From assembly GCF_027409185.1 (NCBI RefSeq), contig NC_084474.1:95573861-95637860 (forward strand): a stretch of 64,000 bases of DNA, given 5' to 3'. Both the position numbers and the translations under genes were made by a program. Source of the DNA: Cynocephalus volans (taxonomy: Eukaryota; Chordata; Mammalia; Dermoptera; Cynocephalidae). The stretch's first letter is position 1. The number at the start of each line of letters is the position of its first letter. This document shows positions 14,823 through 52,600 of the stretch, in pieces. The notes below the pieces were generated by a model, which did not search any database, was not told the DNA's origin, and saw nothing but the letters and a program-made list of their open reading frames with translations.

Positions 14823-14925
14823 TTAGAATTCAAAGTCTTCGTCTGCCATGGCGAGGGCCCAGGCGAACTTCTCCCTCTGCGTTTTGTTGTAGATCTTCTC
14901 CACGGGCACCCCGAACCTCTTACAC
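14823..14925 (-). CDS. TOP1MT: TOP1MT exon 14 (C-terminal, stop TAA)
   Basis: Encodes [18 protein letters not shown] and onward to the end ADEDFEF, the conserved type IB C-terminus just after the active-site tyrosine. Acceptor CTCCACAG lies at 14926-14933, phase 2 in. Confidence 0.95.
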
Positions 14926-20900: not shown

Positions 20901-23900
20901 GGCGTTATGGGCACATCCCGCCCCCATCACGTCTGACTGGAGGAGGGCAGCCGAGGGTTGCCGAGGGTTGGCTCAGAGGTGCCCTGTGCCAGAGATCTGT
21001 GTCCCCTCTGCTCCCTAAAGTCACCAGGCGGACGCATTGTCAAGGGCAGAGGGAGGAAAACCCCACACAAAGCCTGAAGAGCATCCCCAGGAGCATGGCA
21101 GAGAGGCAGGAATGGAGAGGCCCAGAGGCCGAGCAGGGGAAGAATGTTCAAGCACTCAAGGGGAGAGAGCAGAGGGCTGAGAGGTGCCTTCGAGAACTGA
21201 TCAGAGGAGCAGAGACCGAGGCCAGGACCGGGCGAGAAGGGAGCTGCATGGGGAGCCGGCCCTGCGGGGAACACACAGCTGGGGATGCCCGGGGCCCACG
21301 AGCAGATGGGCTCCTTTCTGTGCTGGAAGCCAGCGCCTCCCTCCTCCTCTGCTGGACTCCGGCCACACAGCACCCTTCCACCAATGGCACAGCACCCTTC
21401 AACCAATGGCACAGCCCTGCGTCAGCCCACCATGCATGTCCCCAGAACAGGGCCCTGCACCTGCCAAGGCACAATCGTCAGGCAGCTCCTGCCTGAGAGC
21501 CCTGCTTGGGGCAGTGGGCACGCTGGCCACTGCTCAGTGTATGGGCGTGGGGACGTGGTCAGCACGGGGGGACATGGTCCACAGTCCGCGCCGGGGGTGG
21601 GGCCTACTCACCGCTGGTCAGCTCCCGCAGCTGCTCCTGCAGAGTGATGGAGGCATTGTAGGTCCGGAACACCTTGGCCGTCAGCCCGCACATGAGGTCC
21701 TGCAGGTGCTTGTTGAGGGTGGCCGTCTGAGCACAGTAGAAGGAAACAGGTCTCTATGAATGTGGTCCCTGGGGAGAGCAGTTTCACTGTGCCATCCCAG
21801 CCTCCGAAAGGACAGAGGGCAGGGGATTTCAGCAGGGAGGGGCAGAACAAAGACAGCCCCGGGCCTTCTCTAAAGAGCACAGTGAGTTCGGCTCATGCTC
21901 TCCTGGCCCGCGTCAAGACGGCGTTTGGAAATAGAAAGAGACTTACGGTCAGCCTGTCAAAAAGGTCATCCCCAGGGTCCTTGTTCTCCATGAACAGCTG
22001 TAAATTCTTGTACACCTGAAAGAAAGAATCTCAACCCTAGAGCTTTGCTCAGACAAGATTCATAAGATGAAGGCAAATGGGAGAGAGAAGCAGCCTCTTG
22101 TGAGACAGAGCACCCAGGAGCTAAAGGAGGGGCTGAAAGGGCATCTGCACGTCCAACTCGCCGCCTGCGGGAGCCCCAGGTGTCACCAGGGAGGTGAACC
22201 CAGTGCAGCCACCTCCTCGTTCACAGCTGACCCCTGAACTCATGTTTCCCGCAGGAGGGCACAGAGGGGAAAGGGCTCTGCTGCACACTGGCTGAGCTGC
22301 AGAGCACGCGGGCGCTCCAGCAGGCAGGGCTCAGCGAGCAGGCTGCACGCTCCACCACGCCTCTCCCCAGCTTGGAAGAGAGCACCCAGAGTTAGCGCAC
22401 CCCATGAGGACAGGGACAGGGCAGCCAGACCCGAGGCCACGGCGCGCCGGCACTCACAGGCTTCTCCACGGGTACCCTGTTGTAGTAGCGAATGGAGTCC
22501 TTGCCCAGGAAGTCCAGTTCCACAACGTGCTTGCAGCCACCGGCCTCCGGGTGCAGCCGGACGTGCTCCACGCGCAGTGAGCAGCAGCCCACTGTGTCCG
22601 CCGTCTCGCCACCCTCCTTCTCGTTCCCGGCTCTCAGCGCCAGCTGGCGAGGGCGGAAACCTGTCAGGGCGTGCAGAGTGCACACGCACACCCGTGCACA
22701 TGCACACCCCTCTCCCAGGCACAGCCAACGTCCCTGCACCAACGCCACCAGCAGGCCGTGGTTCTGAGACCACCGTGATGAGTGGCAGCAGAAGGTGACT
22801 TGGAACAGTGGCCCACACCTTGTCAATGAAGTAAAGGGCCACCGCCTGCTGCCGCCTCTTCATTTCCCGCGACTTCCAGTCAGCCCGATACTGAGAGCGG
22901 ATCTCCTCGACAACACCTTTCAAGCGTCGAGCTGTTTCATACTTTTGCCAATCTTTCTCCCCCTAAATAAAGAAAATAAGCAGTAAAGGAAACTCTTCGC
23001 AGTCCTGTGGAATAGAGGAGAAAGCCGTCCACTCTCCACCACGCGTCTACGCTCCTGGCACGGTGGGGTCAGAGGCTGTGGCAGCAAGGCCCAGCCTCAG
23101 TGAAATCTGAACTAGTTGTGAATGTCTCTTCCTGATTTTAAGATGTTTGGCCACTGGGCACAACATGACCTCAGCAGCAGCTGGAGGGGCCCACGGGCTT
23201 CTCCACCCGCCACTCTCCCATCTGCTCTGCACTTCTGAGCTGCCTCCGGGCTCTTGCAATGGGGGTCCCAGCCGCACCTTCAGCTTTGAGCTCGGGTTCA
23301 GCATGATGTATTTGATGGAGTTCTGGATGTTCTCCGTCCACGCTGCAAGCCACGTGACGGTGTTGTCCGAGCGCACCTCTCTCCACTGGTGGCCTGCTGG
23401 GGGCTCGGGGATCTTTGAGTCCCTGCAGCAAAACATAATCTCAAGGCCTTGTGCTATGAGATATGAGCACAATGAGCATCACTGCATGACTGTCCCATAC
23501 GGTGGCCCATGGTGGGCTCCTGGCCAAGTCTGGCTTCAGGAGCGGCCTGCCAGACTGCCTAGACCAAAGCAGCTACCCAACCCACCTCCCGTATACATGA
23601 AGATCAGGGTGGGACCAAATGCTGAGGGCCACCCTGGCAAGGCTGAGTGCTTGCATGAGCCTTGCAGGTCTGACCTGTAGGTTCCTGCTGCCCGAGTCCC
23701 CAGGGCTGCTGGCACCTGGCACACTGGTCCCATGACGCAGGATTACTCAGCACCACCAAACCTTTCCACGCCCCACTGCTCACAACTTTCTGCTAATAAG
23801 TTCAAAACACTGATGTGCTACTAGACTGACCAATCCAGAGTATTCTGAAAAAACATATGTTTAAAACATGCAGGAAACTTTCTTGGTTGGGAAACGTGTC

Positions 23901-26900
23901 ACGTGACCAGCATTTCTGATCTGTGCAGAGAGGTGTCCCATAAGCTGTGTCCCTGCTCCTCTTGAGGCCAGGTGCTGCCAGCTGCACATTTTGGACATGC
24001 CTCACTCTCCCAGGAGGGGCTGAAGCCCAAAGACAACCCTGCCTGGCAGTCAGTCCTAGCCCACCGTCCCCATACCTGCTGCAATTGATGACCACGTCCT
24101 CGGGCATGACCCTCCTCTTCAACATCCCCATCTTGGGGTGGTCGCCGCGGCCGCGGAACAGCCCAGGCGGCTCGGTCTTGAAATTGCCTATTTTTTCTCG
24201 GTGACCATCTAAAATACAGTAGCCAAACTCTTGCTGAAGTTTTTCTGCCTCTTCTTTTAGCTTCTGAGTTGAGGAGAAGGCACATGTACAGCAACATGGA
24301 GAGAAGAGAACACGCGTAAGTCCCCACAGCTTGCCCAGGGCATGCCCCACCTCGGCTGATGGGGCTGGAGCAGCGCAGGCCTGCAGGGGACATCACGGCC
24401 CAACCCCACCCCTGCACATGGCCTCAGACCCCAACAGCCACGCCAGATGAGGGGAGCGTGGTAGCCCCACGCGTAGGAGGAAAACTAAGGCGGGATGGGT
24501 TGGAGAATAAACCCTAACCCACTGTAACTGCCGGCTGAGGAGAGGGATCCATCACCCTTCCCCAAGCCCTGAGAAGCAGATGCTCGAGCAGCGGCAGCAT
24601 GGCGGCCTGGTGGCTTCTGCTGCGCTCAGGCAGAGGAACAACCCAAACTAAAGTGAGGCCGCACTGCGCCTCCCACGTCCTGCCCCTGGCCCACACGCCC
24701 GCCCACAGGTCCACTGGCATCGCTGACACTAGCTCACATGTCCTCTCTCTCCAACGGTGGACTTACTTTCCAATGCACTCTGGGTAAACTGAACTACAAT
24801 TTAAACCCACTTAAAGGCATGTAACTTGAGCATGTCTGAGCACTTGAGGCAGCAGCTCCCCAGGCCTTAGCCACCATCTGAGGACCCCCCGTACAAAAGC
24901 CCATGAGGAGCGGCTTTGTGAGGAAGGGCTTTGTGAGGAGGGGCTCTTCTAGGTCGAAGAACGGGGCTGCTGGCCCAGGCTGTAGGCCACTGGGCGAGGG
25001 CGCAGATGCACACGGCAGCCTGACCTGTCTCTCCTGCCAGGGCAGGGCCTTGCGGGCTGCAGCTTTGTCCACAAAGTATCTGTGGATCTCCGTGAAGTCA
25101 CACTTGTCCAGATGCTTGATGACTTCTCTCTCTTCTACTGTCATTTCCTGCACCAAAACCAGAGACACACGTGCTCTCATCACAGCTAATGCCACACGGC
25201 GTGGACGTCCCCCCAAGCTGGGGGCCCTTCTACAAGGACAACATGACACCCTGGAAGCAGGCAGAACAGGCTCTAGGTAGAGTGCCATGGCCACCTGCCT
25301 CCACCAGCCCCCTGCAGCCATCGGGCCAAGAGTGGCCCAGGTGGGCAGGACAGTGGTGGGCGAAGCCTGGGGACCCTGTGTGGAGGGTGAATGTGGAAGC
25401 ACGGGGCTCAGGACTAGTGTCTACTGCTCAGAGAAGAGTGGTTGTCCCAGCACAGCCCCTCAGGACCAAGGCCCCAGACACACCTAGTCTGAGCGCCACT
25501 CTCACCCTTGACATCCCAAATGCCACCCTGCATGGCACCAACAATCACACCCCTCCTCGGGTGAGGGCCCCTGTGCCCCATGCCATGCTCCAGGTGCAAA
25601 AGACCAGTGAGAAGCAATGCCCACTCCCCACTAGGAGAGCCTGCCCCCTGCCCCCAGAACGCCCACCAGTACAGCCCACCTCCCTCCCATTGGCCCCCCC
25701 CAAATAGAGCCCGCCTTCCACCCACAGACCCACCCACTAGAAAGCCCGCCTCCCGCCCACAGATCCTCCACCAGTAGAGCCCACCTCCTGCCCAGGGATC
25801 CCCAAACTAGGACAGCCTGCCTCCTGCCCACACCTCCCCACCAGGAGAGCCCACCTCCCATCCAGAGACCCCCCACTAGGACAACCCCCTCCCAGCCACA
25901 GACCCCCACCAGTACAGCCTGCATCCCACCGTCTCCCCCTCCCCTTTGTGAATGCAAGGGTGGGGCAGGGCACCCGAGGGCACCACTCTCCAAAAGCAAT
26001 TTCACATTTCAATAATAAAAATGGCTAAAACCTTTGATCCAATAATTCCATTTTTGAGATCCTATCCTAAATAAATTACCCACTATTAGTGCGATGATGA
26101 TAATTAACACCATTGGGGACAGTTGGAAATAGGATAAGTAATCCAGAAAGAGCTAAATAAATTACAATGAATTCATTCAGTACAACATTAAGAAACTCAT
26201 AAAGAAACTTGTCTTAGTCTCTGTGTGTTGCTATAACAAAATACCTGAAACTGGGTAATTTATAAGTAATAGAAATTTCTCACAGATCTGGAGACTGGGA
26301 AGTCTAAGATCGAGGTACCAGCATTTGGTGTCTGGTGAAGTCCCAGTCTCTGCTTCCAGGGTGGCGCCTTGAAGGCGTGTCCCTGCATGGGGGAGGGATG
26401 GCAGGCCAGCGCTAGCTCATCTCCTCCAGCCCCGGCGCAAGGCATCAATCGCACCCGTGAGGACGCAGTCTCTTACAGCTGCTGCACGGGGGATTAAGTT
26501 TCAACATGAATTTTGGATGCAAACATTCAAAGCACAGCGGAAAACAGTATGATGATTACACACGAACATGGAAAAATAAAAATTATAAAATGGTAGCTGG
26601 GAAAAAAACCACATTATACACATATGATCACAACTGTGCAGAAACTAACACCCATGAAAGCCAGAGTTTGGGAACACGAGACCCTGACACGAGGGGAGAA
26701 AGGCAGGACCACAGGACACAACCAAGAGCCCACGAAGAGGGGAGTGGATGACTGAAAGCGCACGGTCAACACTGCCAGCACCACCAGGAGCAAGCCGCCA
26801 GGCAAGAGCCAGGGACACAGCCACAGATATCACACCAACAGGGACCCCAGGAAGGAGACTAGGAGTCACACGAGTGTGGATGCAAAGACTAGTCCAGACT

Positions 26901-29900
26901 CATGTGTAACTCAAGTTTTAAAACTGAGAAAAGAAAAAATCTTAATGTAGCACCCTCATCTTCAAAGAGCTTCCCACCAAATGTGTTTTCCTGGGGTCAG
27001 AAAACGCCACCTTGGGCCCCTGCACTCCCGGCTTCTGAGAGCCCTGCCACTGTCCTTCCAGCTGGACCGGCAGTGAGGCCCAGCCCGCTGGGCTCCCCTC
27101 CCTCTGCCTGCCTCTCCACCTCCCGAGGGAAGCCACCAGGCAGGGAGATGTCTAGAGAGCTCCAGGCCATGCTGAGAAAGCAAGGGGGCCACTGAGAGCG
27201 TGAGAGGCCACGCAGACATAGCAGCCTAGTCACACAGCACAGTCCAGCTGCTGTGGCCACCCAGGGCGACATACCTTTCGCCAATCGCTGAAGAAGTTAT
27301 TTTGGAAAACTTCCTTTGTTGTATATTCATGATCCAACATTTTCCCATAAAAAGTGGCAACCTCTTCAGCTGCCAAGCTCAACTTCATGGGCTTTCCTGT
27401 AGACATGAGAAGACACACTGCTTCAGGGAACAGCCACAGGCTCACCCTCCAGCTGACACAAGCCTGTGACCTTAAATTACACTTCAGGATATATGGCCGG
27501 TCGTCTCCACATCTGTGGGCTCTGCATCCGCACATTCAACCAACCACGGAGTAAATATGTTCAAGAAAAGGAACAATAGGATAAAAAATAATATAAATTT
27601 AAAAATATTATAACGACTATTTATTTAATATTCACACTACTTGGGTATCATAAGTAATTCAGATGTGACTTAATGTATATTGGAGGATACATGTAGGTTC
27701 CATGCAGATTATTACCCATCTTATGAAAAGGGCTTGAGCATCCACGGGTTTTGGATCCATCAGGGGTGCTGGAATTAATCCCCCATGTATACTGAGGGAC
27801 GACTGTATTATGGTAAGAGCAAGGTGCTAGGTTTTTGTTTTTTAAATTCAGAAGCACACTCTAAATTGAGATTGATTACAGCGGCCGTGTGGAGTCAGCC
27901 GAGCGTCTCAGGAGGTCAACGACGTGGCAGGGCTCCAGCAGCTGCCGCCCTCACCTCCTCCCTCTGTCCACGCTTTATTTTGCTACTACGTTTGTATTAC
28001 AGGGAAATGCAATGTATGCGATTTTAACACACAAATTTCTACAATTACAAAAGCAAAATAAAAGTTAAAGCTTCAAAGCAGAAAGATGCAAATAACTTAA
28101 GGTGTAACCTTTAAATACCTTCAACTCTTTGCTCAGCTCTTTCCTACGTGTTACGCTAAAATCAGCATGATTTAAGAGACGGCCAAGGGCCAAGTGGGAG
28201 GCCAAGCAGGTGGCGTACAGCGCTAACGGGGGCGTGTGTGTTCCCCACGAAATTACTTCAACTGTATGTCTGAAAGTTTTTCATAACGAAATGTTGGAAA
28301 GATGCATGTGAATTAGTTAATGAGGAAAAAGGCACTCATGATTGGGCCAACCCCGTGGCGCACTCGGGAGAGTGCGGCGCTGGGAGCGCAGCAGCGCTCC
28401 CACCGCGGGTTCGGATCCTATATAGGGATGGCCGGTGCACTCACTGGCTGAGCGCGGTGTGGCCAGTCACAAAAAAAGACAAAAAAAAAAAAAAAAAAAA
28501 GGCATTCATGATAAACAGCAGCAATCCTTCCCCAAACCAGCTTCTCAGAGGGACAGAGGCCACAACATGGGCAGCACAGGCTGAGGTTCAGCTCCCGCAC
28601 CAGCACGCCTCGTGCCTGGGGTCACCTGCACAACGCTGCTCCCCCCAGGACTGTCCACGTGGCCTGCGCCAGCCGCCTGCCCAACCACCGTCAAAGCCCT
28701 GAGAGCCCCTGTAGCAGCTCTTTCTTCAGGAGCCACACAGTGTGGGCAGGCCTAAAAGCCCAGCAAGAAGTCTGTCCTCCAGGAACATACAGTCGAGCTC
28801 AAAGAAACAAGTTTTGAACCAAAAACTACATCAATGGAGTTCAACAATGTGAGTGTGAGCGTGACCCAGCAGGGTCCACAGGGAGGCCCAGAAACCTCCA
28901 GGAGCCCAGGGCTCCAAGAGCCCCAGTGAGAGTAGGGCTGGCAGAAGGCAGAGCGGCGTAGCCATGCGTGGCCATGGAGGCCAGTGAAGGCCTGTGCGTG
29001 TCTGCACGTTTCCACGTGTGCCTGTGAGTTTGTGTGTGCTGGCGTGCGAGCGCACACAAGCACTGCTAATGGCGTGGCCTGACCCTGGAGGAGAAGAGGT
29101 TTGCTTTTTTCAGAAGGATCCCTCCAGCAGAAACAAAGAACAGGTAAATTAGCAGCACAAGAATCAGGGAGACACTCCTGGGCACTGAGGTGGGAGGATG
29201 AGGTGGCTGCGAGGGCCAGGGGCCTGATTCTGGAGGCCGCTCAGTGCTCACTTCAACTACTGGTTCAGCATCTCATTAAGACATGCAAACTGTGACCAGG
29301 TAACCATTCCGTGCATGTGTGTACATACATGTGACACATGCACCACGTACACTCAAAATGCCATGGGAACAGAGAGACTTGACCCCCTCACCCGGAGGTG
29401 TGTCCTGGCTATGAACATGCCCAACTAACACAAACCCAAGAACACCTTGTGCAGGGCACAGCAGGAAGGCAGGGTGACAGGAGCCACCAGACACTGGCTC
29501 ACCCCACCCAGCGGGGCAAGCGTAAGGACAAACTTTACAAAGCCTGAAGGAACAGACGCTTCTGTGGGGACATCAGGTGGACTCCTGCACTGCTACTGCC
29601 CTCTGTGCCATCTGGGTCAGTCAACCAGAAGCCTTTGAATCCCAGACCAGGAAGGTGGGCTCTGCACACGGACCATTCATGTCTAACAATGAGCGTGGCA
29701 GCCACGCTCTGAGGACACCAGGAAGCAGCGGTAGCCCAGACACCAATGAGGGGCGCCCACACCCAGGGGTGAAGACGGAAGAGCTCCTGGACACAGGTCA
29801 CCAGCCCACAGCGAGGAGAGCCCTCGCACCCTCACCGTCGTAGAAGAAATGCACCCCATCAGGAAGGGGCTCATACGGGGGGGCGAAGTAGGGGCCCTTG

Positions 29901-31501
29901 TGCTCCAGCTGGGTCCACTTCACATCTTGGCTCTTCTCCTCCTCCCACCTGGAAAAACACGAGATGAGAGTGTGTCACTCTCACAATGCTGCATGACGCC
30001 ATGTGCCAGGCCTGAGCTGAGTCCTTCCTGCCTTCTCCCTCACTGACCCCTCCCCAAAGCTCCATACAGGTTAGCACCGTGGCCACCACCTTCGAGTCGA
30101 GGAAAACAAGACTGGCTTGAAGAGCAAGGTGAAGCGAAGGCGGGCAGGTGGCCATCCTGCCAGGGCGTGTGCCCACCAGGACTGAACCTGCTGACCTCAA
30201 CACCAGCGCCATGCACCTGGCCCACCTCCCCATCTGAACTGCCATGTGTGCTGCGAGTCACCACCTCGGGGTACAGGGGAGCCAGCTAAGTGGGAAAGGG
30301 CCAGGAAATGGGCCTCTCCTGGGCTGTGCCCCTTCAGCGTTGGCCTAGAATCCTTCGGGAGGTGGTGACAGGGTCTCACAGGACCCCTCCATGCTAAACA
30401 GAAAGCCTGTCTACGCTGGAGGAGCTCAGCAAGGGAGGACAGGTGGCCTGTGGGAAGAGGGGATGGCACAACAGCAGGGGACCGGGTGCATCCCACAGAG
30501 GAGCTGGGCACGTAGTAAAAGTCTGGGGCAGGGGACGGAGTTGCTGCGAGCATGAGGTCCTCAAGAAGGGCTAACTGTGGGTGTGGCTCCCTGCTGAGGT
30601 CCCTGCCCCATCTGCCCCCAATCTTCCTGAGACAGCATGTCATCCCCAGGGCATCCCCTCCCAGGTCTGAACTCTCATCTGTTCCCAGCCTCAGTCTCCA
30701 GGAGGCCTGCCCTGGGCCCATCAGCACACACCGCCCCCCAGCTGTCCCAGCTCCCAGAGACAGGCAGGGCATTTCTGCTGCATTGCCTGAGGCTAAACGG
30801 ATTTACTAACAGCACGTGAAAATACTGGGTTAGCAACAATCGATAACTAGAGAGAACTGACCAGTGGGAACTCCTACAGGACTTCCATGCATGGGAGGTT
30901 GTACACCCTCTAGACTCTTAGGAAACGGCCGACCTCTCATGCACAGACCTCCACCCTTCTGTGGCTATCCCAGCCCTGTACCTGCCACAGGGCTTCTTCC
31001 ACAAGCCCCCAGGAAGGTGCTTGGGAGCACTGATGGCCCCTCAGGTGAGGCTGGCTCCTAGTGCGCGACAAGTGACACTGAGTGCCCTGCATCCAACCAG
31101 GGGAACGGAAGCCGGTCTACAGACCACACACAGCAACGCCAGCTTTTCATAAAGTTCAAACCCAGACACTGCAGCGTGGAGGCCCAGGCACAGCCGCGCA
31201 AATGAAGCTTACCCCCAAATGCGGGAGGCTACCCCCAAGGGAGAGCACCCGGAGGCCGCTCACACACGTGCGCGCACGTCTCCGGCACCGCCCGCCCGAC
31301 TCCACGGAAGGACCAAGGACCGAGGCCGCGCAGGCCGTCCCGGGGCCCGGCCCCTCCCATCCCGGCCTTCCTGCCGCCCCTCGCGCTCCCCACGCCTTAC
31401 CGGGCTCGCAGCGTCGGGGCTCCCCGGGGTCGCGGGCGGGGCGTGTCTCCCAGCAGCGCACGCGCCGCGCCCCGGAGCCGCAGCAGCGGGACCGCGCTCA
31501 T
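14823..31501 (-). CDS. TOP1MT: TOP1MT, mitochondrial DNA topoisomerase I (gene span, mitochondrial isoform)
   Basis: Type IB topoisomerase that nicks one strand through a 3'-phosphotyrosine to relax mitochondrial DNA. Fourteen coding exons (listed separately) total 1782 bases, giving 593 residues; I recall 601 for human. Every junction has GT/AG and matching phase. Residues 1-33 form an Arg-rich presequence without acidic residues except one Asp. The core carries Arg316, Lys360, Arg418 and His460. A coiled linker (about 470-540) precedes catalytic Tyr551 in SKLNYLDPR. The spacings 44, 58, 42 and 91 equal those of nuclear TOP1 residues 488, 532, 590, 632 and 723. Oddities: Cys410 in [10 protein letters not shown] where the family has an acidic residue, and Ser448 in LSYSRANR instead of Asn. 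A second promoter and N-terminus lie upstream (37-43 kb). Confidence 0.95.
15464..15613 (-). CDS. TOP1MT: TOP1MT exon 13 with catalytic tyrosine
   Basis: Encodes the end of the coiled linker ([16 protein letters not shown]) and the active-site block [18 protein letters not shown], with Tyr551 as nucleophile. Donor TG|GTGCGT and acceptor TTGCCAG fit. Confidence 0.95.
15930..18890 (+). repeat. L1 ORF2/3'-UTR remnant in TOP1MT intron 12
   Basis: Long A-rich sequence with familiar L1 ORF2 phrases (CAATAGATGCAGAAAAAGGA near 16461; CAAATGACCCAGCAATTCTA near 18394), ending in an L1M-like 3' UTR (GCCAGGGGCTGGGGGAGGGC near 18714). It is antisense to TOP1MT. Reading frames are broken throughout. It is interrupted by a SINE dimer at 17433 and by a short foreign block near 16905-17010 that may be LTR-derived. 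Confidence 0.8.
17433..17613 (-). repeat. Dimeric tRNA-Ile-derived SINE inside the L1
   Basis: Reversed two-unit SINE with a T/A run at its left. The 17-base flanking duplication AACGTGAATAGAATTCT is perfect, so this is a young insertion. Confidence 0.9.
19118..19212 (-). CDS. TOP1MT: TOP1MT exon 12 (linker)
   Basis: Encodes [18 protein letters not shown] and onward to GDGASR, the charged coiled-coil linker between core and C-terminal domains. Consensus donor AAG|GTGAGT and acceptor TTTGCAG; phase 0 in, 2 out. Confidence 0.93.
19764..19891 (-). CDS. TOP1MT: TOP1MT exon 11 with active-site histidine
   Basis: Encodes [18 protein letters not shown] followed by [14 protein letters not shown]. 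His460 aligns with nuclear His632, which stabilises the transition state. Ser448 replaces the usual Asn of YNRANR. Confidence 0.95.
21612..21726 (-). CDS. TOP1MT: TOP1MT exon 10 with active-site arginine
   Basis: Encodes [18 protein letters not shown] then [15 protein letters not shown]. Arg418 corresponds to nuclear Arg590. Cys410 (LMCG) replaces an acidic residue, unusual for the family. Donor CG|GTGAGT, phase 1 out. Confidence 0.95.
21947..22015 (-). CDS. TOP1MT: TOP1MT exon 9
   Basis: Twenty-three codons, [20 protein letters not shown] followed by RLT, in the core domain. Acceptor TTTCTTTCAG and donor ACC|GTAAGT are both strong; phase 0 on both sides. Confidence 0.95.
22458..22643 (-). 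CDS. TOP1MT: TOP1MT exon 8 (core; Arg316 and Lys360)
   Basis: Encodes [28 protein letters not shown] and [18 protein letters not shown]. Arg316 and Lys360 correspond to nuclear Arg488 and Lys532, two of the catalytic residues. Donor CCT|GTGAGT. Confidence 0.96.
22819..22962 (-). CDS. TOP1MT: TOP1MT exon 7 (core)
   Basis: Encodes [20 protein letters not shown] then [15 protein letters not shown] and AVALYFIDK. Acceptor TTTATTTAG, donor AAG|GTGTGG; phase 0 both sides, 48 codons. Confidence 0.95.
23278..23422 (-). CDS. TOP1MT: TOP1MT exon 6 (core)
   Basis: Encodes [20 protein letters not shown] then [17 protein letters not shown] and [14 protein letters not shown]-contacting core sequence. Donor AAG|GTGCGG. 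Confidence 0.95.
24076..24263 (-). CDS. TOP1MT: TOP1MT exon 5 (core)
   Basis: Encodes [20 protein letters not shown], then [20 protein letters not shown] and [16 protein letters not shown], a hallmark of type IB enzymes. Acceptor CAACTCAG, donor CAG|GTATGG, phase 2 out. Confidence 0.96.
25025..25147 (-). CDS. TOP1MT: TOP1MT exon 4
   Basis: Encodes [20 protein letters not shown] then [17 protein letters not shown]; 41 codons, phase 0 both sides. The end WQERQ differs from the basic residues I recall in human TOP1MT, a surface helix. Confidence 0.95.
25635..25935 (+). repeat. Minisatellite in TOP1MT intron 3
   Basis: About seven imperfect copies of a C-rich unit of roughly 41 bases, built around CCACCAGTAGAGCCCACCTC and ending in CCCACAGACC-like text. 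It explains the stop-free Gly/Val/Trp-rich frames on the minus strand here. Confidence 0.8.
26213..26545 (-). mobile_element. MaLR-type LTR in TOP1MT intron 3
   Basis: Starts TGTCTTAGTCTCTGTGTGTT, then AACAAAATACCTGAAACTGG, and ends TTTCAACATGAATTTTGGAT, a familiar MST/MLT1-like LTR read backwards. It splits AT-rich L1-like sequence (26000-26212 and 26546-26650). Confidence 0.65.
27275..27396 (-). CDS. TOP1MT: TOP1MT exon 3
   Basis: Encodes [20 protein letters not shown] then [20 protein letters not shown], start of the core cap. Acceptor GTCTACAG, donor AAG|GTATGT; phase 1 in, 0 out. Confidence 0.96.
27495..27806 (-). mobile_element. Tigger/MER2-type DNA transposon remnant
   Basis: Its ends resemble the inverted repeat CAGTCGTCCCTCAGTAT (right end, minus strand), with internal CATCCACGGGTTTTGGATCC. 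Noncoding. It sits in TOP1MT intron 2. Confidence 0.7.
28345..28500 (+). repeat. Variant GC-rich tRNA-derived SINE
   Basis: Body GGCCAACCCCGTGGCGCACT, then GCGCTGGGAGCGCAGCAGCG, a different left unit from the other SINEs, followed by CTATATAGGGATGGCCGGTG and an A-tail. The flanks repeat AGGCAYTCATGAT, so it is a young insertion. The variant suggests a separate subfamily. Confidence 0.85.
29836..29948 (-). CDS. TOP1MT: TOP1MT exon 2, shared acceptor of both N-termini
   Basis: Encodes [20 protein letters not shown] then [17 protein letters not shown], start of the conserved core. The acceptor TTTTTCCAG leaves one G that completes the last codon of either upstream exon. Joined to 31401 it gives R-WEEE; joined to 37105 it gives RWRW-WEEE. 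Confidence 0.96.
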
Positions 31502-31700
31502 CCGCTCCGCTGCTCGCCCCCGCGCCGGGCCCCGCCCCGCCCACGGCATGACTCCACCCCGCACCGGCCCTGCCATCACGGGCTCCGCCCCCGCCATGGC
31601 CCCGCCCCGCCCCCGGAAGCGCGAACGGCCTCCCAAGCACAGAGCCCGGGGCTGGGTCAGGCGCCAGCTGCCTGTCCCCAGCGGTGCAGTGGGTGGGCTG
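31250..31700 (-). promoter_or_regulatory. TOP1MT: CpG-island promoter of the mitochondrial TOP1MT isoform
   Basis: GC- and CpG-dense block around the presequence exon, with a CCGGAAGC ETS-like site near 31612. Long frames on both strands are composition artefacts. Confidence 0.75.
31401..31501 (-). CDS. TOP1MT: TOP1MT exon 1, mitochondrial presequence
   Basis: From the ATG at 31499-31501: [20 protein letters not shown] then [13 protein letters not shown], ending CG|GTAAGG with phase 2. Rich in Arg, Ala and Leu with one Asp, as expected for mitochondrial import. The frame stays open upstream with other ATGs (such as MPWAG, better Kozak). The chosen start has C at -3 and A at +4, a weak context, so the true start is uncertain. 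Confidence 0.88.
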
Positions 31701-31701
31701 G

Positions 31702-32950
31702 GCGGCCCCCTGCCCCGCGGCTCTGCTCATGACTACGGCCCAGGGTGTCTTCCAGGTCCTCCCGGTCGATCCCCGGTTTCCCTGCCCTCTTGGTCCAGCG
31801 GTCCTCAGGCTGGAGAAGGCCGCCACATACAGTTCCCACAACCCTTGGGCCCTGAGCTGCCCTCCAGGATGCCCCGCAGGTTACACGCGCAGCCTAAGGA
31901 GCCCCTGCCCTGGGCTTGCACACAGGAGGTGCTCATCATTGCACTGCTCTCCCCCAGAGCCTCCCGAGGGCGGGGCACCCAGCAAGTCCTTCCTGAGTAC
32001 CTGCTCCCCATGCACACCAGGAGAAGACAACCTCAGGTTGCCGGGCGGGGGCAGGGGGGCCTTACCTCATCATACAGCAAGTCAAGCTACCTGAGTAGCA
32101 ATACATATCAAATCCCAGCACTTCCAGGACAGTAACGACAGAAACACCTGCCACCCAGCTCAACACAGCCCCTCTGAGGAGGTGACTGGACAACCATCAC
32201 TACAAGTCCCGAAAAATAATCACAGCTGACCAGCCCCTCACCGCAAGAAGACCAAAGACCCACACGCAAAGAGAAGCCTCCTTCCCCACGCTCACAGTCC
32301 CTGGGACGACGATGCTGGCCCAAGACAGAGCAGAATCCCGGCGTCCTCCCTGAGCAGCGAGGCCAAGCGGCAAAACCTCTAGACCAGCACTGGCCGTAGG
32401 CTCTGAGCCAGCAGCAGTCTGTACCAGCTCCATCTCTTGCAACTGCACAGCCTTGGTCTTCGACTATAAATGGGGATGTCAGGACTCGGGGAAGGAGATA
32501 AGTTCACACGTGTCCTTGCTTTTGCTGTGACCACTTGGTAAGAACACAGTGGAGACAGGCGGGAAAGGGGCCTGGCGACCCTCAGCGGCCCTCCTGGGGC
32601 CAGCAGCATGCTCAGTTTCCAATGACCGCTAGTGGCTGGAAGCGTGCACAGAGATGCACTGCAGTCCAGGATCCAGGACCCAGGCAGGCCTTGTGGGGAC
32701 CTGTCATCTAGAATGAGTGACACAGCTGATCACGGTGGACACACTGGGACGGCAGCAGCTGGCACTCCTAATAGCCGCCTCCTTCCAGGTGTGGTGGAAA
32801 GGTTGCCTGTATTATTTCTTACAATTGTTTCTACAAACCAAGAAGTAAATCCTAACACAGGTACTGTTCCTTCAACAGAGCCTGAGGCCAAGGTGTTTTC
32901 CAATTCAGATTCCTCAAGTTTTATAAAAGGCAATGTGGCAGGACAAAAAC
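31702..32950. other. Intronic stretch of the long TOP1MT transcript, no feature
   Basis: Single-copy-looking sequence between the CpG island and the L1 at 32950. Open frames on both strands have no recognisable domain. I see nothing else supportable. Confidence 0.4.
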
Positions 32951-37104: not shown

Positions 37105-38135
37105 CATCTCCACCGGCTGCCGTCTGTCTTCTGCTGCCCCCTCTCTCTCTCCTGGTCGACTTTCTTCTCGTTCCCACTGGACACCCCAGCTTTGACTGGC
37201 TCCTCTTCCTTCTCCACGTCCTCTCTGCCTCTGGCCCGCTTCACGCCACGCTGATGGCTCTCTTCCCTGGATGTGTGCTGGGTCCCCGCTGGCGCCTGGC
37301 CCTGCACCTGCCACTCCGCGGCCCCCTCGCTGAGCTCACTCCCACGCTGCGCCTCTCTCTCTCTGCTCCGCTCGTCCTTCTGGTCCTGACCTTCTAATTT
37401 TCGTTCCTTTGATTTTCCAGCCCCTTCCTCTGCGGCTCTGAGTACCCTCCTTTTCTTTCCTCTTCTGGAAACCACGCTGCCCGGACCAGACCCCTGGTCA
37501 TACTGGGTCTCCTTGCTCACCCTCGCGCCACCTGCTAATCTTTCGTCGTCGTCTGTCTTCATTTTCACGGCCCACACATCTGTCCCTTCCTTGTCATCGT
37601 GTTGAAGCTGTTTCCTTTCCAGCAGCTCTTCACACTTCCTGGCATCTCTGGGCTTCGTCTTTCTCACTGGGCCTTGCTCAGAGCCGTCCCCTGGCATGGC
37701 TTCTCTGCCATCCTGCGTTCCTTTCTCATGGTGACACTGCCCCTCCTTTCTAGCACGTTCCTCCCCGGGTCCCCTCTCCTTCGACTCCTGCTCCCTGCAG
37801 CTGAGGTCCTCCTGCGTGCTCCTACTGTCCCCGTGGCCCACCTCTGGCCTCGCGGCTTTTGTGTGTATCCCGACAGGTTTCTCCGGAAGCCTTCTCTCTT
37901 CAAGGTTTTCTCCTTTACTTTTTTCCTGCTTGCATTTGCTCTTCTCACGGCTCCCACCCTGGCCATTGAGCTCACGGCCGTCCCCTCCAGGGGCTGCCTT
38001 CCTGCCGGGCGCTGCCTGCAGGACTGTCTCCTTCGCTCTCTTCTCCTGGGTCTTGGAGGGCTGGCCGGAGACGCCGTCAGGTCCGCTGAGGGCCATCTTC
38101 AGCTCATCTGCAGGACCTCCACATGGCCTCGCGAC
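37105..38135 (-). CDS. TOP1MT: TOP1MT upstream exon F: long charged nuclear-type N-terminal domain
   Basis: A 1031-base exon, fully open, between acceptor TCTGTCTGGACAAG and donor GATG|GTAGGT (phase 0 in, 2 out). It encodes about 343 residues dominated by Lys, Arg, Glu, Asp and Gln. Basic clusters include RRGKKRRV and HQRGVKRARGRE. It ends R-W-R-W, and splicing to exon 2 gives RWRWWEEEK. In nuclear TOP1 the matching place reads KWKWWEEE, where Trp203, Trp205 and Trp206 affect strand rotation. The open length, charge bias and exact motif at the junction make chance unlikely. Not proven transcribed. Confidence 0.75.
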
Positions 38136-38648
38136 CTTGTCCAGACAGAGAGAACACACCATAAGTGGGGTCACACATAAGCCATGGGCAGTGCCCACCC
38201 CAGGGACCTGAAAACAGGAGAGAAGCTCCACACAACAGATGCGCCGCAGAGGGGCACACAAGCTGTGGTCACGTGGGTCTGATAAGTGGCCCCTACCAAG
38301 CTTCCGAAAGCAGCTTCTTGGCCTTGGCTCCTGTGGAGCAATAACAAGGGACTGAGCTTGGGGCTATTCCCAGGTCGGGGGCAGGTGCAGGCCACATTGG
38401 TCCACGCAGTGGCACCCACCATACCCGGGCACAGACAGGAACGACTGGGGAGAGAGTGCCATCCCAATGCCACCTCCAGTCCAGGTGCTACCAACTTAAT
38501 TCACAATAAAATCCTACTAGAAAATCAAACATTAAGTTGATGCATTGTCTTCTTATATTTGCAAGAAAAAGCGTCTGCCCAGCATGAGTCCCCATGAAGT
38601 GGCTCATCAGAACCGAGCTTACCACGTACTCCGGTCTGCGGTGCTCAC

Positions 38649-38715
38649 CTGGCCTTTCTTCTTGGACGGCTTCCCGTGGTTATCAGTCTTCACTGGCTTG
38701 GGAATCTGTGCAGAT
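38649..38715 (-). CDS. TOP1MT: TOP1MT upstream exon E (basic)
   Basis: Acceptor TTGTGTTCTAG, donor CAG|GTGAGC, phase 2 in and 0 out. Encodes SAQIPKPVKTDNHGKPSKKK then GQ, a lysine-rich stretch with an NLS-like PSKKK cluster. The phases fit exons D and F. Confidence 0.7.
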
Positions 38716-41104
38716 CTAGAACACAAATTTATACAAATATCCAAATCTGCTGCTCGTTTAGAGAGCCTACCATTTTAAAAACAGGAGAAAAGATTCAAAA
38801 TAATTTCACAGAAACCTCTCATCTTCTTAATGGCCTTTATCCTCCTTTCTAAAAAATATGCTTGGTAAATACGATGGCAAATCTCCCAGCAGGGATGTGA
38901 CTGAGCCTCAGCAAGCTGGTGAGGTGTCCACCAAGTCCAGAAGCCAGGACATGTCTCTCACACGCCTCCCACCCCACAGAAGCCTCCTGGGCCACAGGCA
39001 GAGAGGACAGCAAAGGGCAGCCCCTTGTCACTCACCAGGGCCATCTCTGTCCCCTGTCAACACTATGACAGCTTGGAAATCATCAGTTTAGAAGAACAGT
39101 CCTTCAAAAGTAACTTTTAAAGAAGTAGTAAATCTGAAAGAATATATTCAGAAGCAAACCCCACACTAAATAGAGAGAGGGACATAATCGGCCTAGACAG
39201 GAATGGCACAGGGCACCACCCGGGCTTGCTGGGGCCCAGCAGCTGGGGCAGGCCCTGCCAGGGGAAACCCCACGCAGGGCGGTCTGAGGATGAAGGCCAT
39301 GTGGAAGGGAGCAGAGAGGAGCCCCCGGCCAGCAGCCAGCCAGAGAACAGCGCTCAATCCCACAGGGGCAGGGACTGTTGACAATGCCAAGAGCCTGGTG
39401 CCTCGACATACACTGTCCCCACCAACACCCCTGGATTCCGGCCTGTAATGCCTTGAGCTGAGAATCCTGCCATGTGACCCTCAGACCTGTGCACTAGCGC
39501 TTAGGGCTGTTTCAGCCGCCAGCACGGAACACACAGAACACTGGTGACTCTGTTCCACCACTTGTGCAATGTGATACCCTGCCGTTACTGAAGTCGCCAC
39601 CAAAGAAAGCCTTTGCCAGATGTGTTCTGTGGACTGTGGACTTCCAGCCTCTGAAACTTTGTTTTCCAGTCAGCCTAGAGTTGCAAACTTGCCATGAGAC
39701 AAGTACTATCCAGACCCTGAGAAACCAAAACGACATCAATAAAGACCCTAAGCTAACGTCAAGATGGAAACAGAGAACAGATGGAACCAGACCTTGCACC
39801 CGGCTCCTTGCAGGAACCCCCCACAGCTCACATCCTCCTCCCTTCTGCTTTTCACTTCCTAGGCTCCATTCCTTCAATCTCTTATTTAAAACCTCTCAGT
39901 AAATCCGAGGTTTGGAGATGGCTCTAGTCCAGCCGTTCTCAGGTTTACCAGAGAGGTGGGTTAGCCCAACATCTCTCCACAGGTCACAGTATTCCTGAAT
40001 AAACGTGCACGCGTACGCACACGCACACACACACACACACAAAAAAAACACTGGTGAACTGGGCCAGACGGTGGAGTCCTGGGCTGCAGACCACCAAGGA
40101 ATTCTCCAGGATGCAGAATCTCAGTGCCCGGCCTCACCCACAGCTACCCAGCTGAAATCATCAGGTGGGGCCCAGGAACCTCTGCTGTTTGACATTTGAT
40201 TAGGGAAAACTTCAGACACATACAAAAGCAGAGAGGACAGTGTAATGAACTCCCATAAACCTGTGACTCCAATTTGAAAATTATCTGCTCATGATCAACC
40301 TCTTCTCACACAGCCCCACAGGAAGCCCCTGTATTTTAAGCAACTTACAGGTAACACTCAACAGCTAAGAATTGAAGGGAACTTCCTCACCCTGATAAAA
40401 GACATCTACAAAAACCCCATGGTTAGCTCAAACCAACTGATTCTAACTTAAAATCTATTTGCCATGAACTGACACAAATCCTGCCATCGAGCCATGGATT
40501 CATTTACAGCACTGCACTTTTCAAAAGCAAAACCTAACACGGTTTTTCGCATCAGGTTTTCTTCCTTGTTCTGCTGGACAAAGGGAGCTCTTTACACTAA
40601 CATCTGATACAAGAAAACAGAGCCGAGAGGTAAAGAAAGGTCAGCAACACTTGCATGCCTGATGCCTTTTCCGCTGCTTTTGGTTCTACTCTTTGAAAAA
40701 AACGTGATTATATTGACTGTTAAGAAGTTCACCGTTATTTTTGACAAGGTCATTTATTTAAAACAAAAACAAAAAGCGCCCAAGGCACGTGAGAGAGCCG
40801 CCAGTCCCCTCAGGCCATTAGTGTCACAGCTGGGCTCTGTGCACACAGGAGAGCTGGGTTTCCTCACACTCAGACAGGAGCTCACATTACCCACCCGTCC
40901 CACAGTCCTATGCAGTCTTCTGCTCAAGTGAAAGCAAAGACTGGAATAAACACAGGAGTGCAGGTCCAAATGCCACCACAAAGGCCAGACTGTAGGGACA
41001 AAAGGTGCTCCTGCTCCCAGCCCCTCGCTCCGACTCCCCCTCACCATCCACACCTCACCTCACCTCACTCTGCAAAGGAAAGGGGTAGAAAGAACAAACC
41101 GCAC
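38716..41104. other. Intron of the long TOP1MT form with old L1 pieces and a CA repeat
   Basis: L1-like fragments lie at about 40187-40300 and 40365-40440 (GAAGGGAACTTCCTCACCCT), and a (CA)n microsatellite at 40010-40040. A block near 39560-39660 may be LTR-derived. I see no further exon. Confidence 0.5.
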
Positions 41105-41175
41105 CTGTTAACAGGATCATCCTGTCCTGGATTTTCTCTCGAAACAGAGAATTTATTTTCTTCTTTCAAGCTCTG
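41105..41175 (-). CDS. TOP1MT: TOP1MT upstream exon D
   Basis: Acceptor TTGTGACTTGTAG, donor ACAG|GTGCGG, phase 0 in and 2 out. Encodes QSLKEENKFSVSRENPGQDD then PVN. It is needed to connect exon C (phase 0) to exon E (phase 2); without it the frame breaks. The polypyrimidine tract is modest, so this is the least certain of the set. Confidence 0.6.
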
Positions 41176-41709
41176 CTACAAGTCACAAGATAACAGAGAG
41201 TTACACTGAAAGCATTTCCATGTCACATAAACAGTCAGAAGTTCTGTCAAAACAGTAAGGCCACCACCAACATGTCCTGTCCATGGCCACTAGGAAGACC
41301 AAACATGATGCTTAGGACACGAGGAGACATGAGGCTGGCCTCAGCCAGTGGCTGCTCACGATACTAAAACTCAGCTCACAGCAGCCTCATCAAAGGATTC
41401 CAAGTGGCAAAAGACAGCCCTCCTGGACAGAGCAGGACTGCGGGATCCCCTCCCCAAACCCAGCTCCTTTCAAATTCCAGGCACAACAGGGCAGCAGCAG
41501 GCGGGAGGGAGAGGAGATCCTTCTGAAATCTGAAATAAAGGCACTGCACATGAATGCAAAGTACACATTTCTCAGCTTATCAAAATAAAATGCTAAAAAA
41601 GGTTTTTCATACTCATCAAAAAGGTTCATGAGTAAAAAAAGTGAAGAACACAACATATGGAAGACTGTGAGTTTAAGAATGAAACAGACGGTAAACAGAA
41701 GCTTCAGAC

Positions 41710-41809
41710 CTGTTCTTCCCCACATCTTCCCCGATTCTCTTGGTTTGGCTCCTTCACTTTCTGCTTCTTTGGGTTTTCCAGCTTCGTCCTCTCAGTATTC
41801 TTTCTCTTC
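41710..41809 (-). CDS. TOP1MT: TOP1MT upstream exon C (bipartite NLS-like)
   Basis: Acceptor TTTCTTTGATTAAAG, donor ACAG|GTCTGA, phase 2 in and 0 out. Encodes KRKNTERTKLENPKKQKVKE then PNQENRGRCGEEQ. Two basic clusters, RKRK and PKKQKVK, about ten residues apart look like a bipartite nuclear localization signal. Confidence 0.7.
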
Positions 41810-42126
41810 CTTTAATCAAAGAAACATGTCAATGGGACTCCAAAGGGAAAAATTGCAAAGCTAACGTCAAGATGATGTGTTTGACAGGAAGAAACGTGCA
41901 CTGCCCAGGAAGGTGACAACATCCCTTCCCTCCCTCTCCTCCCCTGATACCAGACTCCCAGCCCAGAGGCTCCGTGCCACGTCTGTGTTCTCTGCTGGTG
42001 TAGTGATGAGGTCAAATTAGACCAGATTGTTGCAAAAGCTGAGTCCGCAGGCAAAGCACCCCCAGTAACAAAAACCATAATTCACAAACAAGCAAAGACC
42101 ACTTCCTCCCAAAAGTATTCTGTTAC

Positions 42127-42225
42127 CTCACAAGGGCAGCCTTATCCTTCACTGAGAACTGCTTGAAATCATGCCCCTGAGCATCTCCCATTGCCTCTTC
42201 TTTATCTGTGACCGGGTATCCCCAG
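42127..42225 (-). CDS. TOP1MT: TOP1MT upstream exon B with likely start codon (coding 42127-42191)
   Basis: Acceptor TTTTCTCACAG, donor GAG|GTAACA, phase 2 out. The ATG at 42189-42191 has G at -3 and G at +4 and gives MGDAQGHDFKQFSVKDKAAL then V. The frame is open back through this exon and into exon A, so an upstream start cannot be ruled out. From 42226 to 43291 I see only intron. Confidence 0.68.
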
Positions 42226-43149
42226 CTGTGAGAAAACATACAGGCCACGATGCATTAGGGAGGCCCTCAGGGGGAGCAGCAGGGCAGTTCTAAAGGAGGT
42301 GAGCCTGGACCCATGTGGCAGGGAAGGACATTCTATGGCCTGTCCTGCCTGTGGCTGACAGACTGAGTCTACATTGGAAACACAGCAACAACTAATATCA
42401 ACCCACATCCAAGAGACCAGCAAAGGCACTCTGTTCATGAAGTCTCCACTGTTTCTGACAATCAATAGATATTTGTTCTTAATTCCGTCACCACATAATT
42501 AGCATTTCTAGGAAGAGTTTCAGTTAACCGGCTCTGAGCATTTTCCAGAGTTTTCATGTCATTATGTTCACATTTTTAAACATTACAACTAATCATTCTG
42601 AATGCAGACAGACTCCACTGAAAATAGCCTGTGTGCTGGTTTTAGCTGAATACTTATGGCTTTAAGAGAAAAATAGCTGTAAACTGGAGGTGTTACAAGG
42701 TGGCTGCTAGCAATGAAAGAGGAGGGAGGCAGATCAGAAGGTCACAACGAAGAGGGCACAGGACGACACCAGCTCCACGATGCACACAACCAGTCCCTAC
42801 GGTTAGCAGAGATGGAGGTTTCAAGTCCAGGCAGGAAGCCCCGAGCGCAGGAGGAAAGGCCCAGGGGCAAGTGCGCCCAGAGCGTCCCCTGCGGCAGGAC
42901 GGAGCAGGATTTCCAGCTGCGGGGGCTGTTCCAGGTCCCACTCCAGGACAGCCGGAGTGTCGCTGCTGGTCAGGAGGCCCCGCAGGCCGTGAAGGTCGTG
43001 GGGGGAGGGGAACACCCCGGGAAGGGGGTACTGTGGGGAGAGGAACATGGAGGAAACGGGGCTACCCAGGGGAGGGCGACAACACGGGAGGGACGAGCCG
43101 GTGAGTCGGGAGCAACACCAGGGGACGGTCGTCACCTAGAGCGTAACCA

Positions 43150-43660
43150 GGGTCGCAAAGGGGAAGAGAATCACCAAGGGCACGCCCGCGCCCCTCCCGC
43201 AGCGCGCTCAGGCCGGGTCCCACCTCCTCTGCAGCTCCTCCAGGGCCCTCCAGACCGCGCAAAGCCACAGCACCAACGCCCAGCCGGCTACCTGCCACTT
43301 CCGACGGCGTCAGTGCCCGCAGGAGCCGGGACACTCCGGCCGCGCGCGTGCGCAACCGCCGCTGCCACGTGCCGCGCCTCGACGCCGCCGCCGGAAGTGG
43401 GCGGGCCCCACGTGCGCGGGGCGGGACGAGCATGCGCAGGGGCGGGGCGCACAGCGCAGGGGCGGGGCCGCGCGGCCGCTCCGTCCGACGTAGCCCCGGG
43501 CGCGGGCCGGGCGGGCTTCGCTCCCAAGACTGAACGGCTGGTGTTGGGGAAGGTGCGCGGGCGCGGGTCACCTGGCCGGCGGGCGGAGGACCTGCCGAGA
43601 GGGAGCGGAGAGGACGCGGCCCGGCGAGGGCGGAGCGAGGGAGCGGACGCGGCTGGCCTT
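43150..43660 (-). promoter_or_regulatory. TOP1MT: Second CpG-island promoter and noncoding exon A of TOP1MT
   Basis: CpG-dense block with CCGGAAGTG at 43391. A donor GGCAG|GTAGCC ends exon A at 43292. If transcription starts above 43433, an upstream ATG (43431-43433) opens a frame that runs into exon B and stops after the main ATG, a possible upstream-ORF brake. The island could also drive a transcript toward RHPN1. Confidence 0.6.
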
Positions 43661-43699
43661 GCGTAGAAGCAGAACCTTCGTGCTTCTGTTTTATTTGGG

Positions 43700-44978
43700 G
43701 GGGGGGGCCAGGAAGCAAGGGAGGGGGAAGCCAGTTTCGGGCATGGGGAAGAGCAGGTTGGTGCTGGCACCTGGGCTCGACCCCCTCGGGGACAGCACAG
43801 AACACACTTCCGCAGTGAGTGCTCTGGTCTCCATCCACCACCTCTTGCGGGTCGTTAGCCACCACCACCCTCACCTCCAGCAGGCCCCGGGCACAGCCCA
43901 GCACCCCTCGGCACTGAGCGAAGCCCTCAGGCGGAAGTCGCAGGTTCCCGCGGCAGGCGTTGGAGCGCACGGAGAGCATCAGCCCACAGAGTGCGCGTGC
44001 GCCCGTGCTGGGCTTGGGCAGGGCCCGGCAGCTGTGCACGTGATGGTGCAGGCACTCAGGAGTATCGTCACGACATGCTCCCATTTGCGTTTGAGAGGGG
44101 TGACCTGGCATCAGTGGGCAGGAAGGCCTGCGAGAAGCCTTGCTCTGTCGGGGGGACGACAGCAGGAGCCCAAACCACGGGCCAACAGAGGATGTGGGAG
44201 GTGCATGACAATTAGCATGGTGTGGAAGTAAGAACAAGGGAAGTCGAGGGTGGTGTCCAGGGTTCCAGTTTGCGTGACTGGGTGGGTGGCGATGTCTTCT
44301 GACCCTAAAACACATACTCAGGAAAACAGAGGCTGTTACAAACACGTTCTCTTAGTTTACAATTGGCTTTTTTATAAGTTTTAGTGCCTTTGTTTGAGGT
44401 TATTGAAAATGTCATTTTCCTGCCTTCTTAACAAATGGACGTTAGGCAAATAGCTGTTTTCCTGTTTTGTTGAATAATGGCCATACAAAGCTGCCTGTCA
44501 TGTAGAAAGCCTCACCCCGCCAGCCTCCTACTCTGCAGAGCATTTGCATAAAGATGGCACCTAATCTACAATTGTGCCTGTATTAGTTAGAGCCATGCGG
44601 AGGCTGAACTCATTTTATTCAGAATGCCACAGGAACAATAGCCAAAAAAGGATACCATGAAGGCAACATATATCATATGCTTCTTAAAAAACCCATTGTC
44701 AGCATCAGTGACAACAGCATTACCGCTCAGTCACTGAGATTAAAAATTAGTCAAACGTGGAAAATAGAAACAGGTTTTCAGGGAATGGAGGCTTTGGTTC
44801 CACTGAATAATGCCCCCTCTTTTGCTTGGTAAATAAATGGTAATATTTCCTGGTGATACATATTTTCGAGGGTAGCTATGTCTAGGTGGTCTCAAGTTTG
44901 GGGTAAAATCCTTGTTAGTTGACTGCCTGGATGGGTGTCAAAAAATATTTTATAAATTGTATCCAAAAATGTGTGGCA
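43700..44978. other. Intergenic stretch, no supported feature
   Basis: Open frames on both strands near 43700-44345 are composition-driven and lack a recognisable domain or clean splice sites. The rest is AT-rich with no named repeat. Confidence 0.4.
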
Positions 44979-51085: not shown

Positions 51086-51849
51086 TCTATAACATATAGT
51101 TAGCTTAAAACTAGCTACCTTACCAAATTCTCTAATTAGTTCTACTAGTTTTTTGGTTGAATTTCTTGGGTCTGTGTGCTGGTATAGGATCGGGGCAGAC
51201 ATGCAAGACGGCCCATGTGGAAGTCCCCACAAAAGTGCACTCACTGTGAACTTGGGAAGCATTGGCCCACTCTCAGCCTCCACAGGTAGGATGATGAGAG
51301 CCCCTGCACTTGTGGAAACTTGAGCCATGGACCGACAGTGGAGGGTGGGTGGGCGAGGGCCTCATGTGGCCTGTGCAATTGGGGCAGAGTGAGAAGGACA
51401 GATGGGATCCACCAGGCAAATGAAAAGCTGAAGGGTCTCCTGCGGAGCAGACACCCAGAGGGCCCCAAAGGCCACTAGAGGACAAGTCCTGGCCAGGAGG
51501 TTTGGAGCGGCAGTCGGGGAGCTGATGAGAGGAGTATTGCTAGGAGGGGCCCACTGCAGATGGCAGGGGCAGGCCGAGGAGCTTAGCTTACAGGATCTAG
51601 GTCTGAGACCACAGGGTCAGGTGTGCTGGGTGGCGGTGAGTGAGCCCAGGGCTCGGCGGCGGGGACACGGCCGGAGCTGTGGGGAGCTCGACACAGAGGA
51701 GCCGCGGTTACCGCCTACGCCCCGGTCTTCCTGCCCTGCAACGGGTGGTTCTTAAGCGAAGTGGGCCCCACGTGAAATCCGAGCGTGCCCAAAGTCACCG
51801 GAAACCTGGCGGAGTAACGAGAGGAGGCGAATCGCTGGGAACGGGCGTT

Positions 51850-52600
51850 GTTCCCCGGCTCGCAGGGCGCTTATCGCGAGCGGAACCGCCCACGCACCCC
51901 GTTGTGAGCACTTTGGCGCAGCGCTCCCGGACGGTCGCGTCGCCGGGGTGCCGAGGTGACACGCGCGGCCGGGCCAGCTACCCGCGTTCCCGCTGTCTCC
52001 CTCTCTCTCTCAACTTCTCCGCACGGGGCGCGGACGCCGCTACGCATGCGCAGGGCTAGGGCGGCGGTTGCCAGGGTTACCGCATTCCCAGGACACCGCG
52101 TGGGGCGGGGCGGGCCGCTGGAGCCCGCCTCTCTCGCGCTCTGGTTGGCCGCAGTTGCTGTCCGTCGGGGCGGCCGCCGCCGCCGAATGGGCCCCGGCGA
52201 GTTTCTCCCGCGGGGCTCGCGCTCTGCCCAGCCCGGGATCGCCCCCAGCCCCGGGAGCGCACAGTCGCGAGCGCCGCGGGCGGCCGAGGACCCGCTGCCC
52301 GGGGGCGGGCGGCCTGGCGGGCGGCGATGATCCTCGAGGAGAGGCCGGACGGCCAGGGCGCCGACGAGGACAGCGCTCGGCTGCAGGCGGCCGGCAGCGT
52401 CCGCAAGGTGGGGCGCCGGGCGACGGGGGCCGGCGGGCGGGGGGCGCCGGGATGCAGGTCCCGGACTCCGGCCCTTTCCTGCCCTCCGCTCAGAGGCGCG
52501 TCCCGGGCCCTTCAGGGACTCCCCGGCGGCTTCCCTCCCATATTCCACTCGCTCCCAGGGGCTTTAGCACTGGGAAACTGAGGCCCCCGTGGAAGGGCCA
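51850..52600 (+). promoter_or_regulatory. RHPN1: CpG-island promoter of RHPN1
   Basis: Dense CpG with the RHPN1 start codon near its middle. Several long stop-free frames on both strands come from the base composition. Confidence 0.8.
52327..52407 (+). CDS. RHPN1: RHPN1 exon 1 (start)
   Basis: ATG at 52327 with G at -3, encoding [20 protein letters not shown] then AAGSVRK, matching the rhophilin-1 N-terminus I recall (MILEERPDG). Donor AAG|GTGGGG, phase 0. Confidence 0.92.

Follow-up and report, generated by a model that had tools for sequence, protein, structure and literature searches.

The gene TOP1MT occupies the minus strand of the 64,000-nt stretch of Cynocephalus volans DNA analysed here (the window), where it has two alternative starts: a first exon carrying the mitochondrial presequence and, further upstream, a chain of five exons encoding a long charged N-terminus. 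We favour, with a probability of about 0.72, the reading that an old non-mitochondrial N-terminus has been kept behind an upstream promoter, that the mitochondrial presequence stands on an alternative first exon, and that the long form is most likely nuclear.

Two first exons of TOP1MT

The five upstream minus-strand exons, A (42127..42225), B (41710..41809), C (41105..41175), D (38649..38715) and F (37105..38135), are each preceded by AG and followed by GT, have matching phases and share one open frame. Joined to the 13 core exons (exons 2–14, 14823..29948, minus strand), which run from the topoisomerase IB core to the C-terminus and were mapped by tblastn, AG/GT borders, frame and Pfam, they encode a TOP1MT of 1004 residues starting at the ATG at 42191. 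The presequence first exon (31401..31501, minus strand) followed by the same 13 exons gives the 593-residue mitochondrial form; it was placed by its donor and phase and by a human TOP1MT probe, a weak match (E 0.16). Both routes enter exon 2, at 29948, in the same phase, and the long form lacks the presequence exon. The initial annotation had proposed these exon borders, the in-phase entry and a product of 1004 instead of 593 residues, and joining the exons reproduced all of them. The full product carries Pfam PF02919, PF01028 and PF14370 (topoisomerase I core, catalytic and C-terminal), all above cut-offs, and the long start encodes 442 residues ahead of the W-x-WW junction with the core.

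Exon A is collinear with isoform X2 of Galeopterus variegatus TOP1MT (P0001), and its first 34 bases (42225-42192), ahead of the ATG, are probably untranslated. Exon B contains a basic stretch, KKQKVK, and exon C opens at a tandem TAG/CAG acceptor and ends in RENPGQDDPVN, a degenerate version of a motif described below; both are matched by a green-monkey-like contig (P0007). Exon D aligns across the long forms of placentals and marsupials that were compared. Exon F encodes a long charged region whose end, RWRW, directly precedes the WEEEK of exon 2. A minisatellite with a 35-bp unit lies in a TOP1MT intron (25624-25930).

By a CpG measure, a separate CpG island lies near either first exon: one at 43000..43999, the candidate upstream promoter, and one at 31000..31749, at the presequence exon, the candidate promoter of the mitochondrial form. 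From the upstream island, transcription would produce an RNA in which exons A-D and F are spliced to exon 2, and the resulting 1004-residue topoisomerase IB would bear a long, charged and probably disordered N-terminus without mitochondrial presequence. A second promoter within the gene would start at the presequence exon and give the 593-residue mitochondrial enzyme. Two further observations were made near these starts. A possible untranslated exon end (CAG/GTAGCC), found by eye only, lies at 43292 inside the upstream island. Just upstream of the presequence exon, 31856-31993 on the minus strand is matched by the N-terminal end of a macaque TOP1MT (P0052; 54%, E 8.6e-10) and is a possible further alternative first exon.

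Conservation and splicing of the upstream exons

The initial annotation considered a 1031-base open exon unlikely to arise by chance, and this held. The frame of exon F (1031 nt) is free of stops, while the two alternative frames contain 8 and 14; among 5000 simulated sequences of its dinucleotide make-up, those open in the three frames numbered only 0, 2 and 2. Nevertheless, the length of an open frame says little by itself: one of 429 residues, unsupported and probably due to chance, lies nearby where GC-rich DNA spans the upstream CpG island (43062-44351, minus strand). It is the cross-species comparison of sequences that decides that the upstream exons are real.

The closest protein among the matches listed (120 of 314, on which all counts of listed proteins below rest) is isoform X2 from Galeopterus, the other of the two colugo genera, an NCBI prediction of 1003 residues. 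It is collinear with the window product through every junction, with 411/445 identical residues in the N-terminus and 554/558 in the core. The only gap is a single Q, located at the tandem acceptor of exon C, so that splicing alone can explain it. NCBI-predicted long TOP1MT forms were also listed in other placentals, marsupials, monotremes, turtles, crocodilians, birds, lizards and frogs. According to this automatic annotation, the long form is not peculiar to Cynocephalus volans but is found across tetrapods. Direct protein searches with the N-terminus reached less far: residues 1-445 of the window product found the Galeopterus protein alone within the best 7999 candidates, and residues 1-112 of the donkey form found four proteins, the query included.

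Charged regions of low complexity give inflated scores; for this reason every comparison, made without the W-x-WW motif, was controlled by 200 local shuffles. For exons A-D of the window (the first 103 residues), z-scores were 39.6 with Galeopterus, 35.8 with Equus, 28.1 with Tamandua, 24.4 with Sus, 17.1 with Sarcophilus and 7.8 with Diceros. For exon F they were 71.5 with Galeopterus, 15.5 with Tamandua, 12.2 with Equus, 12.1 with Diceros, 5.3 with Sus and 4.6 with Sarcophilus. No shuffle reached the real score with any of these six species. This cross-species similarity bears out the proposal that the upstream exons are conserved TOP1MT coding exons of a long form without presequence. Beyond these species nothing clear was obtained, the window scoring z -1.3 to 2.5 against platypus, turtle, alligator, two birds, two lizards, two frogs, Trichinella TOP1 and human TOP1.

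Links between the N-termini of other species (100 shuffles each) bridge part of this distance. Sarcophilus was linked to platypus (z 19.4) and to turtle (5.0), and sauropsids were linked to one another (turtle-alligator 26.5, alligator-turkey 8.4, turtle-turkey 4.2, turtle-Pogona 3.0). Frog links were not clear (turtle-frog 1.7 and 1.2, frog-frog 1.2). The deep relationship of the window N-terminus to the sauropsid forms is thus indirect, through a chain of pairs.

The long forms have in common a motif at the joint of exons C and D. It reads KPLQEN(I/V/T)IS(R)SSLKQE, with small changes, in turtles, alligator and birds, KPLQENTIS(R)SS in squamates, KPIQENVIT(R)SSLKQKE in monotremes, K(P/L)(V/I)Q(E/K)(N/H)xITRNSL in marsupials, and KLGQENVVTS or KLIQDNIVS in frogs; in the window it is degenerate, RENPGQDDPVNRSAQ. 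A match to either of two patterns, written after the sequences had been seen and applied to N-terminal parts of at least 80 residues, occurred in 23 of the 120 listed proteins and in the window, compared to 2 of 1500 shuffled N-termini. Neither pattern was matched by the long forms of donkey, anteater, rhino and pig. The optional R of the reptile isoforms falls at the position of the exon C-D joint of the window, as would be expected if the intron position is common to them.

Hints at the RNA level come from nine listed rows found in the source 'lgn' alone, whose longest contigs measure 1.8-2.8 kb; being far shorter than the gene, these contigs are presumably spliced. Four of the nine (P0007, P0008, P0009 and P0023) have exon B or C joined straight to exon 2. 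The green-monkey-like P0007, 99.8% identical to Chlorocebus models over 561 residues, matches the window at 41805-41710 with its residues 5-36 (E 1.8e-8) and at 41175-41104 with its residues 37-60 (E 2.5e-8), in agreement with the exon borders proposed initially. In P0102, closest to lizards and an amphisbaenian, an exon-F-like end, HKWKWWEEEK, is joined to exon 2. The macaque-like P0034 appears to contain exon D in a different frame, judging by a joint with exon 2 that was read by eye; exon D was not found in P0034 by tblastn. The annotated macaque proteins P0025 and P0027 begin like P0034, and a Cercocebus protein (P0021) has exon C joined to exon 2. Presequence-type starts were seen in three of the nine rows. 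The spliced primate-like contigs indicate that in a primate, an Old World monkey, the upstream exons are still transcribed and joined to exon 2, with exon F skipped there.

Given the 429-residue frame nearby and the fact that the NCBI long models are predictions, one could suppose that the exon chain is open by chance in GC-rich intronic DNA, or that a prediction artefact recurs over species. This is already contradicted by similarity above shuffles, a common motif, exon borders recurring in spliced contigs and the W-x-WWEEE junction, and we consider it extremely improbable.

Relation to nuclear TOP1 and fate of the long form

In a core tree of 27 rows (midpoint-rooted, for drawing only), human and Trichinella TOP1 stand apart from all TOP1MT rows (split 99/96), and long and short forms interleave by species. 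Both same-species pairs of long and short forms, from platypus and Pogoniulus, have identical cores. As far as these sequences tell, the long and short forms are the same gene.

The initial annotation called the N-terminus TOP1-like, and this stood for its junction with the core, where RWRWWEEEK in the window corresponds to KWKWWEEER in human TOP1 (W-x-WWEEE). The pattern W[KR]WW[EQ]E was present in 37 of the 120 listed proteins, one being Trichinella TOP1; none of the 37 is from a primate or rodent, a statement limited to the 120 of 314 matches listed. Beyond the junction, the similarity of the window N-terminus to the TOP1 of human and of Trichinella did not exceed that to shuffles (z -0.6 to 1.1). 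Among other long forms, z with human TOP1 was 4.0 for alligator, 2.2 for Sarcophilus, 1.3 for Ascaphus and -1.5 for turtle, and turtle scored 1.7 with Trichinella TOP1. Descent of the whole window N-terminus from that of TOP1 is thus unsupported; the kinship is visible at the junction only.

If the long form is made, it most likely acts in the nucleus, much like nuclear TOP1. The possibility that it is instead cytosolic or still mitochondrial appears to us quite unlikely. Long charged TOP1 N-termini carry nuclear signals, according to PMC10081982. The long form is without the presequence exon and has 5 acidic residues in its first 34 compared to 1 in the presequence form. A non-nuclear location would fit the basic motifs of the window, for which enrichment was not found: the counts are at the level given by composition. 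Among 13 species compared, K[KR]x[KR] was above composition (p <=0.01) in alligator, turkey and Pogona.

Several observations weigh against a retained and nuclear long form. Exon F is just 29-34% identical to that of four other placentals, and change between the two colugos is about 10 times faster per residue in the N-terminus than in the core (34/445 vs 4/559). The window N-terminus does not rise above shuffles with platypus, sauropsids and frogs, save for a weak 2.5 with Pogona. Among the nine 'lgn' rows, no mammalian one has the junction of exon F with exon 2. The basic motifs of the window do not exceed what composition predicts (4 K[KR]x[KR] motifs, 2.6 expected). Finally, TOP1MT in its short form is reported, in PMC3834834, to be unable to interact with nuclear chromatin.

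Part of this would be accounted for if the upstream exons, real and transcribed, were a decaying relic in placentals, serving as leader or regulatory sequence with the long protein rarely or never made. Rapid change between the colugos, the skipping of exon F in primate-like contigs, the degenerate motif in the window and its lack of pattern matches in donkey, anteater, rhino and pig, and a rhino (Diceros) long model without exons B-C all point in this direction. Yet N-terminal frames of 378-503 residues up to the W-x-WW junction are open in five placental genera, with the caveat that databases favour intact models, and exons A-D retain 55-70% identity between placentals (over 44 aligned residues only for rhino). 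In addition, about 6% of amino-acid-changing point mutations in the N-terminus would create a stop, and none separates the window from Galeopterus. We regard decay as rather unlikely and keep to a functional, probably nuclear, long form. The long start would then be the older one, retained in many tetrapods, and the presequence would have been gained as an added alternative first exon without replacing it. A wider view, for which we see even odds, is that TOP1MT is not a purely mitochondrial enzyme but has been a two-compartment gene since early vertebrates, providing a second nuclear topoisomerase IB in many tetrapods, and that this nuclear form was lost or shortened in well-studied lineages, namely Old World primates and perhaps rodents.

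Elsewhere in the window, a zinc-finger open frame lies at 4425-5801 on the plus strand, which by gene order we take as a candidate for ZNF696, and a third CpG island at 51500-52749 is, on the same assumption, a candidate for the start of RHPN1. On the plus strand, 46023-46211 resembles a portion of a hypothetical protein from Scotinomys (P0118; 52%, E 1.4e-16) and holds one stop; it may be a repeat or the remains of a gene.

Comparison with known systems

In the accessible open PMC literature, accounts of the start of TOP1MT give the presequence only, with an N-terminal domain of 49 residues including it (PMC10081982), where the further start found here encodes 442. The enzyme is called exclusively mitochondrial (PMC9410902, PMC8455175), and the TOP1/TOP1MT pair serves to illustrate a gene duplication with subsequent relocation to mitochondria (PMC2790464, PMC12718117). 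No mention of a long form occurs in the accessible parts of PMC10081982, PMC9638942, PMC2790464, PMC3834834, PMC12718117, PMC8455175, PMC9410902 and PMC3401127. Discussion of it was not found in the accessible open PMC literature, and work elsewhere, such as a 2007 paper on human TOP1mt splicing, may contain it. The long form thus apparently stands undiscussed in automatic annotation: Galeopterus X2 and similar NCBI isoforms, known as database predictions, are the same form as here.

Should the long form be made and be nuclear, many tetrapods would possess two nuclear topoisomerases IB. The mitochondrial signal would then have come with an additional first exon and not through loss of the older start. 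Work on human and mouse cells could have missed such a form.

The gene shares its core exons, domains and presequence first exon with TOP1MT of other vertebrates. With nuclear TOP1 it shares a long charged N-terminus and the W-x-WWEEE entry to the core, but TOP1 is a separate gene by the core tree and its N-terminus cannot be aligned to that of the window past the junction. Single genes with nuclear and mitochondrial forms are reported for DUT (PMC10181998) and for TOP3A, where the choice of start determines the form (PMC9638942, PMC8455175). In contrast to TOP3A, which uses two translation starts, TOP1MT here has two first exons, and a nuclear paralogue of it exists already. The finding casts a known gene in a new light and does not amount to a new kind of system.

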